DNA of 28,976 nt from a virus, in the IMG/VR virus record IMGVR_UViG_3300046463_000103, positions 1-28,976 of that record. The stretch is one strand, 5' to 3'. Shown one piece after another: positions 22,736-28,976 of this stretch. Positions within the stretch are counted from its first letter, which is position 1. Each line of letters opens with the position of its first letter. A program made the position numbers and the translations under genes. The notes below the pieces were generated by a model. That model ran no database searches. It saw only the letters and a list, made by a program, of their open reading frames with translations, and was not told the origin of the DNA.

Positions 22736-22764
22736 TGGCCTTGGAAGTAACTTCCGGCTATAAT
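22736..22764 (+). promoter_or_regulatory. Predicted promoter with palindrome in the spacer
   Basis: TATAAT at 22759-22764 is a perfect -10. The -35 at the 17-bp position (TGGCCT, 22736-22741) matches only three of six bases. GGAAGTAACTTCC fills 22743-22755, inside the spacer. The geometry matches the promoter at 24083. It would drive the gene starting at 22788. Confidence 0.5.
22743..22755. repeat. Dispersed palindrome, perfect, in a promoter spacer
   Basis: GGAAGTAACTTCC, three bases before a perfect TATAAT. Confidence 0.95.
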
Positions 22765-22787
22765 CACTCACCCGAAAGGAATACGTC

Positions 22788-24082: not shown

Positions 24083-24111
24083 TGGACAGGAAGTTACTTC
24101 TTCGGTATTAT
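24083..24111 (+). promoter_or_regulatory. Strong promoter with palindrome as operator in the spacer
   Basis: TGGACA at 24083-24088 and TATTAT at 24106-24111 are separated by exactly 17 bp; each differs from consensus at one base. The spacer begins with the palindrome GGAAGTTACTTCT (24089-24101). A protein bound there would block RNA polymerase. A perfect DnaA-box sequence (TGTGGATAA, 24071-24079) lies just upstream. Confidence 0.7.
24089..24101. repeat. Dispersed palindrome, intact 11-bp core, in a promoter spacer
   Basis: GGAAGTTACTTCT starts right after the -35 and ends four bases before the -10. Confidence 0.9.
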
Positions 24112-24117
24112 ACGAAA

Positions 24118-24195
24118 CTGTTCGACGCTTGGTTTTTTGACGCGGATAAAACTCTTGGCCCCTCGGTAGTTGCTCACCGCCGAGGGGCCATTTTT
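24118..24195 (+). ncRNA. Predicted short RNA between promoter and terminator
   Basis: Transcription from the promoter at 24083-24111 should start near 24118 and stop at the terminator ending near 24195, giving an RNA of roughly 78 nt with no ATG-initiated reading frame. It could be a regulatory RNA, an attenuated leader for the PEP-CTERM operon, or a polymerase-modifying element. Only the promoter-terminator pairing supports it. Confidence 0.45.
24157..24195 (+). terminator. Rho-independent terminator ending the structural operon
   Basis: A perfect 10-bp stem, GGCCCCTCGG (24157-24166) with CCGAGGGGCC (24180-24189), has a 13-nt loop and is followed by ATTTTT. It terminates rightward transcription from the tail and fibre genes and also the short RNA starting near 24118. 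Confidence 0.9.
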
Positions 24196-24419
24196 ATGAG
24201 ACAAGTCTCAGGCCGTGAAACACACGAATGCCGGGGCTTGGAGGGGTCGCCAGCGGCTTTTGGCTTCTGACCGCACCTACCCTAGCCGGAGATCGGCTGG
24301 ACGCCGCCCTACCCCCCTGGAATTTGTCGGAACAAAGGGGTTGACAACCCACTTTGACATACGTCGTGGATTAGTGTTAATGTTTCGATGCTACATCCAC
24401 GTCAACCAGGGAGTTCGAA
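24196..24419. other. Non-coding stretch before the PEP-CTERM operon
   Basis: No supported gene is seen between the terminator and the ATG at 24420. An open frame of 66 codons overlaps the region but has no ribosome binding site and runs through the terminator. The 3' part carries two TTGACA motifs 13 bp apart (24341 and 24354) and the promoter described separately. Confidence 0.6.
24354..24381 (+). promoter_or_regulatory. Predicted promoter for the PEP-CTERM operon
   Basis: A perfect -35 TTGACA (24354-24359) is followed after 16 bp by GTTAAT (24376-24381, four of six). A second TTGACA sits at 24341. AGGGAG precedes the ATG at 24420. No palindrome copy lies in this promoter. Confidence 0.5.
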
Positions 24420-25163
24420 ATGAGAAATCTCTTCCTCGCCGCCACGGCTCTTACAGCAGCGGCTCTCGCGACACCGGCTCATGCCGTCCTACAGATCAGC
24501 GCGGACATCAACGGAACCACCTTCTCCTGCTTCGATCAGGAGGCGTCGTGCGATACCAACGCCGCCGTGGGTCAGTTGGCCATCGCTGACCAGACCATCG
24601 CCGGGGTACAGTTCCTCGGCTCGGCGCAGACCCAGGTGGTCGGCCCGACCAACTCGCTGAACACGTCCTCGTTTCAGGTGATTAATAACAACGCGGGCAC
24701 CGTGCAGCTTCAGCTTGCTGTCAGCGGCACGTCTTTCCAGGGGCCGGTCGCGGACTTCTCGGCGTCCTCGTCGGGCACCTTCCAGAGCGCCATCGGATCG
24801 TCGGCCAACTTCACCTACTTCGCTGACAACGCCAACGGTCAGGGCGCGGACAACCCGAACGACTTCCCCGGCACCAATCTGGTACCGGGCGGCGACACCA
24901 AGAACGTGACGCTCGCGACGGACGGCTTCGGGTTCAACCATACCGGGACGTTCGCAGATCCCGATCTCTATTCGATGTCACTCGGCACTTCCGTATTCCT
25001 GACCGCTGGCGGCTCGCTGGTAGGTCGGTCACAGGCCATCGTGACGGAGCAAGTGCCGGTCGCGGAACCGGCCTCTCTCGCCATCATGGGAGCGGGCTTG
25101 GTAGGGCTGGGACTGGTGTCCCGGCGTAAGAAGACTGAAACCAACGGAGAACACTACGCATGA
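24420..25163 (+). CDS. Secreted PEP-CTERM protein 1
   Basis: A 247-residue exported protein. Residues 1-22 are a clear signal peptide (MRNLFLAATALTAAALATPAHA, positions 1-22 with AHA before the cut). The mature part is a Ser/Thr/Asn-rich beta domain with an early Cys pair (CFDQEASC). The C-terminus is a PEP-CTERM sorting tail: VPVAEPASLAIMGAG, a hydrophobic helix, then SRRKK, followed by a short hydrophilic extension. In bacteria such proteins are cut and anchored by exosortase and are linked to extracellular polysaccharide. No exosortase is encoded here, so the host enzyme would be needed. It overlaps the next gene by ATGA. PEP-CTERM proteins are not usual phage cargo. Confidence 0.85.
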   Translation: MRNLFLAATALTAAALATPAHAVLQISADINGTTFSCFDQEASCDTNAAVGQLAIADQTIAGVQFLGSAQTQVVGPTNSLNTSSFQVINNNAGTVQLQLAVSGTSFQGPVADFSASSSGTFQSAIGSSANFTYFADNANGQGADNPNDFPGTNLVPGGDTKNVTLATDGFGFNHTGTFADPDLYSMSLGTSVFLTAGGSLVGRSQAIVTEQVPVAEPASLAIMGAGLVGLGLVSRRKKTETNGEHYA

Positions 25164-25834
25164 AGAAGTTACTTCTCGGCGCGTCGGCCATCGTGGCTGG
25201 CGCGATCTACTTCGCCCCCGTGGCGAAGGCCGACCTCATCGTCGGCAATGACGACTTCTGCCAGTCCAACGGCAATGCGTGCCTGTTGGGCGGCGAGCAG
25301 AAGGTGTTTCTCGAAGCCCAGACCCACACCATGCACGGCATTGGAGATGTCGGTGCCCAGGACAGCGCGATCAAGATGCAGATTAATTCCGATGGCGGAA
25401 TGTTGGACACGTTCATCGACCTCAAGAACGGGTTCAGCACGATCAAGCCGTCGAATGGTGTCTCGTTCAACGGCCTTGACATCAGTATCGCCGGTTATAC
25501 CTTCACCGAATTGATCTTCCACACGCAGTTGACGACGGCGACGCAGTTCGACGTGCAGGGGTTCGCCTCGGCATTGCGGACTTCGGGTCTGGGGCTTGGC
25601 CTTCTCGACTTCGCCGGGGCCAACAGCGATGACGAGTACCGCATCACGGCATTGAACGGCTCTCGGTTCCATGACGTGGATATCTCGGCGCTCGGTGGCT
25701 TCGACGAGATCAAGCAGATCGAGGTAGGTGGACTGGTCGCTGACGCGGTTCCCGCACCGGAGCCGATGTCCATCGCGATGCTTGGGATGGGACTGATGGG
25801 GATGGTGGCGGTACGCCGTCGTCGCCAGACCTGA
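25160..25834 (+). CDS. Secreted PEP-CTERM protein 2
   Basis: A 224-residue exported protein, translationally coupled to the previous gene. Residues 1-24 are a signal peptide ending VAKA before the cut; codons 2-6 (KKLLL) are formed by the palindrome at 25164-25176. The mature domain (about 25-195) has one Cys pair (CQSNGNACLLGG) and repeated beta strands (GISLDISIA-like segments such as GLDISIAGYTF and DVDISALGGF). The tail is VPAPEPMSIAMLGMGLMGMV followed by RRRR, a good PEP-CTERM sorting signal. The two proteins share the tail but little else, so they are not recent duplicates. The stop codon overlaps another palindrome, and a strong terminator follows. Confidence 0.85.
   Translation: MKKLLLGASAIVAGAIYFAPVAKADLIVGNDDFCQSNGNACLLGGEQKVFLEAQTHTMHGIGDVGAQDSAIKMQINSDGGMLDTFIDLKNGFSTIKPSNGVSFNGLDISIAGYTFTELIFHTQLTTATQFDVQGFASALRTSGLGLGLLDFAGANSDDEYRITALNGSRFHDVDISALGGFDEIKQIEVGGLVADAVPAPEPMSIAMLGMGLMGMVAVRRRRQT
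25164..25176. repeat. Dispersed palindrome, intact 11-bp core, at a start codon
   Basis: AGAAGTTACTTCT in the first codons of PEP-CTERM gene 2. Confidence 0.85.
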
Positions 25835-25850: not shown

Positions 25851-25878
25851 AAGGCCCCGCCTCGGCGGGGCCTTTTTT
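25851..25878. terminator. Strong terminator between convergent gene sets
   Basis: A stem of 10 bp including AA/TT ends (AAGGCCCCGC with GCGGGGCCTT), a CTCG loop and six T residues, 16 bp after the PEP-CTERM operon. It also lies just past the end of the leftward genes and could act on both strands, less well leftward (TTTCTC tail). Confidence 0.92.
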
Positions 25879-26619: not shown

Positions 26620-27774
26620 TCATAAAATTGACCAATGATCTCCATGGATGATGCCGAGGACAGTCGTGGAAGTAACTTCCGTATGCAGCACGCCGAGTGT
26701 CTTCGCCATCGTCGCGAGTTTCGGATGGGTCACGGCCCATGTGTTGAAGTCGTTCTGAACGTCAAGGTGGTACTGATCCAAGGGTGAAAGGGGTGGCGGC
26801 GATGTGGACGGTGGTTCTGTGGGTGGCGGCGGGCTACTTGTGGGTGGCGGGGGTGGTGATCCTGGCGGCGGTGTTGACCCGGCTAAGAATGCGATCGGAG
26901 ACAGGTCAAGAGTCGGACGTGTCACGAGGACTGTCGCCCCAAGAGGGTTCGTCAGATTGAACTCCGAGTTGTTGGCGAAGCTGGTAAGGCCGACGCCGGT
27001 CGGGTTGAGGATGCTGGTGTCGCCTGACCGGTCGTTGACGATGGTGTTGGAGTTGAAATTCACGGCATTCGACGGATAGGCCAGACCTTCTTCGCCATAG
27101 GCGAAGATGTTCCGGTTCTCCGAGTTGGGGCCTTGCTCCAAGACGTTGCCGGTCGCGACAAGGTTCCCGCCGTTGGGTAGATCTATCGTGTACGAGGCGG
27201 TACCCTGGTTGTCGAATATGCGATTGTCTGTGATGGTATTGCTCGCGGCGCGTGATTTGACTTCGTGGCCCACAACAGCATCATGGATATAGCTGTGGCT
27301 GAGAGTGAAGGCCGCGATGGCACCAACGTAGATATCGTGGGTAGAACCACTCCCATCGCCATTAAAGGCGAACTCGGAATGGTCGATGCTGATTGTCCCG
27401 TTTGGATCGGCGGCACCTAGCAGTCCCTCCTGATTGTCGTGGAAATACACGTCTTCGAGGACGAGGTTGCCGCCCTGGTAACGAATGGCCGCGCCGTTGT
27501 TGTCCGGCACGCTCACGCCCGAGACATCGAAGCCAGAGATCGTCACGTTGCCCGACTCGGTGATGTAGGCTTTGCCGTCTGGCGGCTGCGCGCCGTCAGT
27601 GACCAGCTTGGTCCAGCCGCCGACAGAGGTCAGCGTCAGGTCGTGGTCGATGGAAAGCCAGTCGTCGGTGTAGGTGCCAGCCTGGACCTCGATGGTATCT
27701 CCCGTGCCGGATGCGTTGACGGCGGCGGCTATGGTCGCGTACTGCTGGCCGGAGCCAACGGTTAACGTGGTCAT
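26620..27774 (-). CDS. Parallel beta-helix protein with proline-rich linker
   Basis: A 384-residue protein with AGGGGGA before its ATG (27774). Residues 1 to about 290 form a right-handed parallel beta-helix of the pectate-lyase/NosD type: it starts TVGSGQQYATIAAAVNASGT and IEVQAGTY, then repeats of the type ITESGNVTISGFDV, LVLEDVYFHDNQEG, ISIDHSEFAFNGDG and NTITDNRIFDNQG. Residues about 300-330 are a proline-rich linker, and the last 55 residues form a helical domain (FNTWAVTHPKLATMAKTLGV). No catalytic residues can be named. It could be a depolymerase-like or surface protein, but it lies outside the tail operon on the opposite strand and has no signal peptide. The palindrome at 26668 encodes EVTS in the last domain. 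Confidence 0.75.
   Translation of the reverse strand: MTTLTVGSGQQYATIAAAVNASGTGDTIEVQAGTYTDDWLSIDHDLTLTSVGGWTKLVTDGAQPPDGKAYITESGNVTISGFDVSGVSVPDNNGAAIRYQGGNLVLEDVYFHDNQEGLLGAADPNGTISIDHSEFAFNGDGSGSTHDIYVGAIAAFTLSHSYIHDAVVGHEVKSRAASNTITDNRIFDNQGTASYTIDLPNGGNLVATGNVLEQGPNSENRNIFAYGEEGLAYPSNAVNFNSNTIVNDRSGDTSILNPTGVGLTSFANNSEFNLTNPLGATVLVTRPTLDLSPIAFLAGSTPPPGSPPPPPTSSPPPPTEPPSTSPPPLSPLDQYHLDVQNDFNTWAVTHPKLATMAKTLGVLHTEVTSTTVLGIIHGDHWSIL
26668..26680. repeat. Dispersed palindrome, perfect
   Basis: GGAAGTAACTTCC near the 3' end of the leftward beta-helix gene; encodes EVTS. Confidence 0.95.
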
Positions 27775-27827: not shown

Positions 27828-27846
27828 CCGGCGGGGCTTTTCTTTT
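27813..27846. terminator. Bidirectional terminator
   Basis: GCCCCGCC-aacc-GGCGGGGC (27818-27837) is flanked by five A on the left and TTTTCTTTT on the right. Leftward it follows the stop of the 121-residue gene at once, with a CTTTTT tail. It separates that gene from the beta-helix gene. Confidence 0.9.
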
Positions 27847-28210
27847 AGATGCCGAGTTCTTTGGCCCGGTCGCGGGCACTTGATCGGTTGTGCCATTTGA
27901 TCTTGGAAGTTACTTCTTCGACTGTTGACTCCGGCGGGCGCGTTCGGTCGGTGTCGTCGATCTCCGTGCCGACGATCAGCGCGGGACCGGCGAACAGGCC
28001 CTGGCCGCAACCCGGCAGTTCGAAGAAGGTGTCGAAGCAGTACAGGCCGTCGTCATTGACGAAGACCGTATCGTACTTGTGATATCCGGCGAGACAGAAG
28101 GTGGTGTGGCCATTGCCGTCGGAGACGGCTTGTTGGATGCTGCGGAAACCGTCGGGATACTCGACCTCAAGTACGGTGCGGGCGGCTGGATTGATGCGTA
28201 TCGCTTTCAT
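27845..28210 (-). CDS. Hypothetical protein, possibly DUF3846-like
   Basis: A 121-residue soluble protein with AAAGGAAAGGA before its ATG (28210). It starts MKAIRINPAARTVLEVEYPD, continues IQQAVSDGNGHTTFCLAG and DTVFVNDDGLYCFDTFFELP, then FAGPALIVGTEIDD. The order (MKAI-N-term strand, IQ-x-AV helix, VNDDGL, GPALIVG) resembles the DUF3846 family of small phage and plasmid proteins of unknown function. The last 30 residues are charged and helical and contain EVTS from the palindrome at 27905. It is driven by a near-consensus promoter at 28241-28269 and ends at a strong terminator. Confidence 0.65.
   Translation of the reverse strand: MKAIRINPAARTVLEVEYPDGFRSIQQAVSDGNGHTTFCLAGYHKYDTVFVNDDGLYCFDTFFELPGCGQGLFAGPALIVGTEIDDTDRTRPPESTVEEVTSKIKWHNRSSARDRAKELGI
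27905..27917. repeat. Dispersed palindrome, intact 11-bp core
   Basis: GGAAGTTACTTCT in the leftward 121-residue gene; encodes EVTS. Confidence 0.85.
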
Positions 28211-28350: not shown

Positions 28351-28650
28351 TCACAGTTTTTCATTTGCCGCATCCAGTATCGGCGGAACAGGCGGCGGCA
28401 GTTGATGATCCATCAGCGGGAAGTTACTTCCGAGCCACGCGATCCGCAACTGCTCGACGGCGGAACACATGACCCAGAGGTCGAGGCCAACTCCCGGCCC
28501 GCCGTAGTGGTTCACGGCATCCGCGTAGGAGACATCCAGTGGCGGGGAGTTCTTCATCCAATGCCGCTGGCCATGGTCCGCGATCAGAACCCGTTCAATC
28601 GCTTTCGCCAGGGCGTACAACCGTTCCGGCATGTTGTTGGGATCGGCCAT
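28351..28650 (-). CDS. Hypothetical phage protein (99 residues)
   Basis: A soluble helical protein. ATG at 28650 is preferred over the adjacent ATG at 28653 because AGGAGG then has 5-bp spacing; the ATG also overlaps the stop of the methyltransferase-like gene (TGATG). The sequence MADPNNMPERLYALAKAIER, ADAVNHYGGPGVGLDLWVMC and EQLRIAWLGSNF shows two or three helices and no clear active site. The N-terminal helix and size resemble small accessory proteins in phage replication regions. The palindrome at 28419 encodes GSNF (read leftward). Confidence 0.65.
   Translation of the reverse strand: MADPNNMPERLYALAKAIERVLIADHGQRHWMKNSPPLDVSYADAVNHYGGPGVGLDLWVMCSAVEQLRIAWLGSNFPLMDHQLPPPVPPILDAANEKL
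28419..28431. repeat. Dispersed palindrome, perfect
   Basis: GGAAGTTACTTCC in the leftward 99-residue gene; read as GSNF. Confidence 0.95.
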
Positions 28651-28976
28651 CATTTCCTCCTGAAGATGCACATGACGCGGAAGCGGTGATTAGTTGACTT
28701 GACGATCCCGACGCAGCCCGCGAGATCGAAGGTATCCTTGCGCCACATCGGTAAGACCTGATCGAGCCATACGACATGCGCTCCGGCGGGCAACCGGGCC
28801 AGTGCCCTCATCACTACGTTTCGTTTGATCGTCGAGGTCATGTAGTGATCCGCGTCCTCTTGCGAGTAAGGTGGATCAGCCAGTACCAAATCGTAGTCTT
28901 CCAGCGGCACACGCTCCAGGGTTTGCGCGTCGTCCACGTAGGTCGGGTTGAGATCGTCGTTGATGTCCACCGTGTC
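28650..28976 (-). CDS. Putative DNA methyltransferase-like protein (5' partial)
   Basis: The frame is open to the right edge, so the N-terminus lies outside the window; the GTG at 28970 is probably internal. About 108 visible residues contain YDLVLADPPYSQEDADHY, which includes the DPPY motif of amino-methyltransferases acting on DNA (motif IV), followed by helices and strands (ARLPAGAHVVWLDQVLPMW) and a C-terminal strand (HRFRVMCIFRRK). The SAM-binding motif I is not visible and may be beyond the edge. Family members in phages modify adenine or cytosine, but the target cannot be read from this piece. It is the first gene visible in the leftward cluster. Confidence 0.65.
   Translation of the reverse strand, partial: DTVDINDDLNPTYVDDAQTLERVPLEDYDLVLADPPYSQEDADHYMTSTIKRNVVMRALARLPAGAHVVWLDQVLPMWRKDTFDLAGCVGIVKSTNHRFRVMCIFRRK

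Follow-up and report, generated by a model that had tools for sequence, protein, structure and literature searches.

Two phage genes with PEP-CTERM sorting tails: a possible system for displaying proteins on the surface of the infected host

Exosortase/PEP-CTERM systems occur widely among environmental bacteria, and little is known either of their roles or of the interplay between their surface proteins and viruses. The DNA considered here comes from an IMG/VR virus record and is referred to as the window, meaning the whole stretch of 28,976 bases that was analyzed. It raises the question of why a phage would carry two adjacent genes whose products both end in a signal of this kind. PEP-CTERM proteins also have a signal peptide, and they are thought to be sorted by an exosortase in those outer-membrane bacteria that produce exopolysaccharide (EPS) (Haft et al. 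2006, PMC1569441). In Nostoc, exosortase is required for trafficking and for biofilm traits (PMC12188702), and PEP-CTERM genes have been found to be needed for flocs (PMC9850573). On the viral side, the Llp protein of phage T5 provides superinfection exclusion and prevents adsorption to debris (PMC9586334).

The operon and the phage that carries it

The two open reading frames, P1 (24420-25163, 247 aa) and P2 (25160-25834, 224 aa), lie on the + strand and overlap by an ATGA, so that the start of P2 falls within the end of P1. Each product begins with what inspection and alignment indicate is a classic signal peptide, MRNLFLAATALTAAALATPAHA in P1 (24420-24485, predicted cleavage between AHA and V) and MKKLLLGASAIVAGAIYFAPVAKA in P2 (25160-25231, predicted cleavage between AKA and D). 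Neither has a lipoprotein signal, there being no Cys at +1 of either predicted site. Both C-termini run from (A/P)EP through a hydrophobic stretch to a cluster of Arg/Lys (25065-25127 in P1 and 25751-25822 in P2); the motif is AEP in the P1 of the window and PEP in its close relatives. In a search of the record, PF07589 matches P1 and P2 at an E value of about 2e-6 (23.9 and 24.1 bits against a cut-off of 20.7), the whole-protein scores of 19.6 and 19.9 bits being just below the Pfam cut-off. Both proteins also exceed the TIGR02595 cut-off of 16, with 16.6 bits for P1 and 23.6 bits for P2, and PF07589 has no hit in any of the 14 control genomes. Apart from the tail model, neither protein scores above the cut-off of any named NCBIfam PEP-CTERM family. 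These matches bear out the first-pass annotation of the locus, which had described two coupled genes, each encoding a signal peptide and an (A/P)EP-type sorting tail.

The same annotation had credited the operon with its own promoter and terminator, and of these the terminator holds. An intrinsic terminator (25851-25878, + strand) is seen after P2 in both the scan, with a core at 25859-25871, and the sequence. Upstream, a terminator hairpin with a T-run (24156-24195, + strand, z -3.3) would serve as an insulator; it aligns in the related phages G004 and G005, with changes on both stem arms. Thus, the operon is bracketed by terminators. In contrast, a sigma-70-like promoter of its own is only plausible. 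The candidate, TTGACA-16-GTTAAT (24354-24381, + strand), agrees at 10/12 positions, a score matched by 1% of shuffles, and its TTGACA region aligns in G004 and G005, but it is absent from the list of a stricter promoter scan. Across carriers, no common sigma-70 promoter was seen before P1 (mean of 7.8 versus 7.5 of 12 in shuffles), and consequently the promoter claim is limited to this window. Most proteobacterial PEP-CTERM genes have a sigma-54-type site, which is frequent rather than obligatory; here, a search of 24100-24420 for TGGCACG-N4-TTGCW, allowing up to 3 mismatches, gave no match. Just upstream, the region 24083-24195 contains a promoter-like TGGACA-17-TATTAT with a copy of the palindrome described below in its spacer, then a short stretch, and then the strong insulator hairpin. 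This arrangement makes it a candidate for a small RNA of about 80 nt that would end at the hairpin; no Rfam family was found in the window, this candidate included.

In the left 23 kb of the window lie genes for a major head protein, a neck protein, the tape measure, and the assembly of the tail. Both operon genes are also present, with their order and location unchanged, in G004 (54.5 kb) and G005 (64.5 kb), two diverged phages that show about 78% DNA identity to the window across their head and tape-measure genes. Furthermore, a palindrome, GAAGTNACTTC, is present at 22 sites from end to end of the window, where 0.01 would be expected, and it is found inside the start of P2 and just past the P2 stop as well. 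The conserved position of the operon together with this phage-specific palindrome indicates that the record is phage and not host DNA, and the genes are phage-borne, as first proposed. One arrangement that had been named as contrary to that proposal, a right half made of host chromosome beyond a prophage border, is ruled out by the same synteny and by the window-wide palindrome. G005 starts and ends with an identical 12 bases, AGGGCGCAGAGC, and from this may be a complete cos-type genome. Another P1 carrier, G006, has an exact 123-base terminal repeat and is therefore probably complete; P1 spans its junction. The kin of other genes gave no clear host, since the nearest cultured phages differ (Pseudomonas, Microcystis, Burkholderia/Bordetella).

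The palindrome has features of its own. It is mostly present in the form GGAAGTNACTTCC. Its sites in the window include 1103, 24090, 25165, 25833, and 28420, and there are 59 sites in G004, 71 in G005, and 33 in G002. The 71 copies in G005 are perfect, and just 1 copy with a single mismatch accompanies them. Sites are spaced more evenly than random (CV 0.69 versus 0.98), are also found inside genes, and in 49/51 cases occupy the same aligned position between relatives; none of the other P1 carriers examined has the palindrome. It may be a genome-wide repressor site (stoperator-like) or a DNA-organizing site. Before a gp80-like fiber gene it lies between promoter-like hexamers (22744-22766 in the window and 43312 in G005), and this placement favors an operator function for some of the sites.

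Three genes or gene ends follow the operon on the opposite strand. The first, just downstream (26620-27774, - strand), encodes a protein weakly similar to NosD-type beta-helix proteins; it is conserved in G004, G005, L062, L089, and L090, and its products share a C-terminal motif like TVLGxIxGDxWS. It is followed by a gene for a DUF3846-like protein (27845-28210, - strand, a sub-threshold match) and, at the right edge, by the end of a phage DNA methyltransferase-like gene (28650-28976, - strand).

A phage family with exchangeable ectodomains

When PEP-CTERM genes are sought in phage databases, as had been suggested for this locus, they recur as cargo in many phages, and P1 itself is present in 30 viral contigs found by profile-guided scans. 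Two scans of 84,980 prokaryote species genomes gave no P1; each was built on two degenerate peptide patterns and so could miss distant homologues, and the patterns of the second differ very little from the ones that had recovered the 30 viral loci. Nor was P1 detected in cultured phages or plasmids. A search with the tail alone carries little weight, as the low-complexity filter may mask the tail.

Hallmark genes differ greatly among the carriers. The window group has a siphovirus-type tail with major head and tail genes, while elsewhere the hallmarks are a portal (phrog_1216) and head protein (phrog_1328) in G006, a head-tail adaptor (phrog_332) in G007, a tail sheath (phrog_205) in G008/G009, a head protein (phrog_617) in G014, and TerL proteins in G015 (phrog_2), L061 (phrog_9), and L078 (phrog_38). 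Judged by these genes, the carriers are several unrelated backbones. The P1 tree groups the window with L059, of the same phage group, and L007, of another backbone, with support of 98/98. Two myovirus copies of P1 are about 89% identical in protein, and many other genes are 25-70% identical between those genomes. Every pair of P1 genes gives a dN/dS far under 1, ranging from about 0.07 to 0.45 with most values at 0.1-0.3, indicating that P1 is under purifying selection. By its distribution in these scans, P1 founds a new, phage-restricted family.

The mature P1 ectodomain (24486-25061, + strand) comprises 192 aa with two conserved Cys. AlphaFold2 models it as all-beta with high confidence (pLDDT 94.4, pTM 0.88), and the predicted fold is a beta-sandwich. 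Its weak structural neighbors in the PDB and among viral structures include carbohydrate-binding modules and tailspike domains, and all have a TM-score under 0.5; thus, the class of fold is known, but these matches give no functional assignment. Nor does the P1 ectodomain fit any NCBIfam family. For P2, the AlphaFold model is not usable (pLDDT 35).

Many carriers have a second PEP-CTERM gene after P1, often with overlapping ends, and PF07589 matches all 10 of the second-slot proteins compared. Once the signal and tail have been removed, BLAST finds similar pairs among these 10 only in G005/G009 and L062/L063. At the DNA level, the alignment of the window with G004 and G005 covers the P2 signal peptide, breaks off, and resumes at the tail, so that the P2 ectodomain (25232-25750, + strand) is without alignment to the same slot of its sister phages. 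The first slot shows the same behavior in the pair L089 and L090: DNA identity is 87% over the slot-1 tail, slot 2, and the sequence that follows, and about 80% around the slot-1 signal peptide, while the slot-1 ectodomain does not align. Because alignment is broken in the ectodomains only, the signal and tail can be taken as the constant parts and the ectodomain as cargo. On these alignments, ectodomain swaps between a constant signal and a constant tail are a property of both slots; like the phage restriction of P1, this lay beyond what the first-pass annotation could see. Some phages (L086, L088) have a slot-2-type protein alone.

Sorting tails of this kind are not confined to P1. When viral contigs were scanned with a narrow DNA pattern of the tail (PEPASLA-hydrophobic-G), 116 of them matched (L091-L206), and in 109 of these an open reading frame ends in a true PEP tail; only 16 such frames are P1. 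At 50 loci scanned, the longest open reading frames near the tail gene match portals, terminases, helicases, and other phage families of several lineages. Several PEP-CTERM families besides P1 are seen in contigs L091-L206. The recovery of 109 contigs with a single narrow pattern indicates that the phenomenon is wider than this window.

Surface display and competing explanations

As the first-pass annotation had stated, the partner enzyme is missing: a search for exosortase (PF09721) found none in the window, and none in any of the 16 phage records tested. Processing of the tails would then rely on the enzyme of the host. A tyrosine integrase is present in just 1/25 carrier records (G007), no resolvase scores above the cut-off in 19 records, and the apparently complete G005 and G006 have neither above cut-off. 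Many carriers are fragments, so a missing integrase or exosortase is not absolute. Given how few integrases there are, most carriers are probably virulent, and an effect of the operon would be expected within the lytic cycle.

These findings have led to a model in which the operon displays one or both proteins on the host surface by means of the host exosortase, for the purpose of exclusion or masking. We give this joint statement a probability of about one half; its second part, the purpose, is what we infer. Taken by itself, surface display of P1 and P2 appears quite probable from the signals that they carry, and if display does occur, exclusion is, set against the alternatives, about as likely as not to be what it serves. 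In this model, the phage would make both pre-proteins during infection, and Sec would export them. The known pathway suggests that the host exosortase would then recognize and remove the PEP-CTERM tail and pass the ectodomains to the outer surface or to the exopolysaccharide layer. Once displayed, the ectodomains would most likely mask or jam a surface receptor or glycan, which would block superinfection by competitors and would also prevent the adsorption of progeny to debris and to cells already infected. Masking is suggested by the precedent of T5 Llp and by the combination of constant targeting with variable ectodomains. Such a combination fits an arms race over receptors, but the variable ectodomains could also reflect adhesion or decoy roles. 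A broader version, which we advance tentatively and with somewhat less confidence, is that of a mobile two-slot display system of mostly virulent soil phages, in which one slot with the conserved, phage-only P1 and another with exchangeable ectodomains would together shield the progeny and the infected cell against competing phages.

Display might instead alter host aggregation or biofilm, through flocs or EPS binding, and thereby aid the spread of the phage or the survival of the infected cell. Cellular PEP-CTERM proteins are needed for flocs (PMC9850573; Gao et al. 2018 as cited in PMC12642866), and they correlate with EPS (PMC1569441). In addition, carbohydrate-binding modules are among the fold neighbors of P1, and P2 has a weak match to the flocculation protein PepA (NF033554), sharing its PEP-CTERM tail and aligning with part of the model beyond the tail. 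However, this match, at 37.6 bits, is far under the cut-off of 80, and P2 is not a member of that family. The swapping of ectodomains speaks against a single structural role, and carriers that are mostly virulent would have little time to gain from a changed lifestyle. We therefore regard this explanation as unlikely.

It is quite unlikely that the genes serve lysogenic conversion in temperate phages. The locus does have terminators of its own and a plausible promoter, and G007 has a tyrosine integrase, but that integrase is absent from the other 24/25 records, resolvases above cut-off number 0/19, and the peptide-pattern scans detect no P1 in the 84,980 species genomes, a set in which prophages would be visible. 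This bears on the term moron, which had been applied to the operon at the outset: the part of the term that stands is that of a separate unit, extra to the phage core and sporadic across unrelated backbones, while the part that implies lysogenic conversion looks doubtful for most carriers.

A further idea, which we consider very unlikely, is that the tails act as a decoy, abundant enough to saturate the host exosortase and strip the host's own PEP-CTERM proteins from the surface. This would explain why the tail is common to all members while the second-slot ectodomain can be almost anything. Yet a decoy has no need of the P1 ectodomain, which is strongly conserved, under purifying selection, and confidently folded. 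Finally, PEP-CTERM is a bacterial sorting signal, but the notion of chance host genes or host contamination of virus contigs, with no phage function, can be given next to no weight in view of the synteny in diverged phages, the purifying selection on P1, the many hallmark-bearing backbones, and the lack of any detected cellular P1.

Relation to known systems

The display model brings together elements that are known separately. With the PEP-CTERM/EpsH exosortase system (PMC1569441), the phage proteins share the signal peptide, the near-invariant PEP-type motif, the transmembrane stretch, and the basic end, as well as diverse ectodomains and soil habitats; they differ in that they are phage-encoded, in a coupled two-gene operon, without exosortase or EPS genes nearby. 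The exclusion lipoproteins of the T5 Llp type (PMC9586334) are likewise small exported proteins of a virulent phage with a proposed action at the host surface, but Llp is a lipoprotein, whereas P1 and P2 have PEP-CTERM tails and no lipobox. No description of such a phage PEP-CTERM operon was found in open-access full text, the scope of the search. Within that scope, exosortase-type domains in viral contigs came up in just one other place, a one-line entry, in a list of horizontal transfers, for TIGR03118 putative exosortase-interaction proteins on virus contigs from hot springs (PMC11003980); this is a different named family, with no operon and no analysis of function. PEP-CTERM proteins and phage exclusion proteins were known already, and what is new is a phage-restricted PEP-CTERM family with swapped ectodomains.

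The presence of such a family across unrelated, mostly virulent carriers suggests that phages make routine use of the exosortase pathway and that they redecorate the surface of the host cell by a route undescribed in the searchable literature. If the two-slot model is correct, this hijacking of exosortase for display would mark the first time that viruses are seen to exploit the pathway. The tails also provide a handle for host prediction, since the hosts should be exosortase-positive, and they offer a simple way of testing what exosortase does, starting from the virus. P1 and its relatives may possibly represent a new class of superinfection-exclusion proteins.
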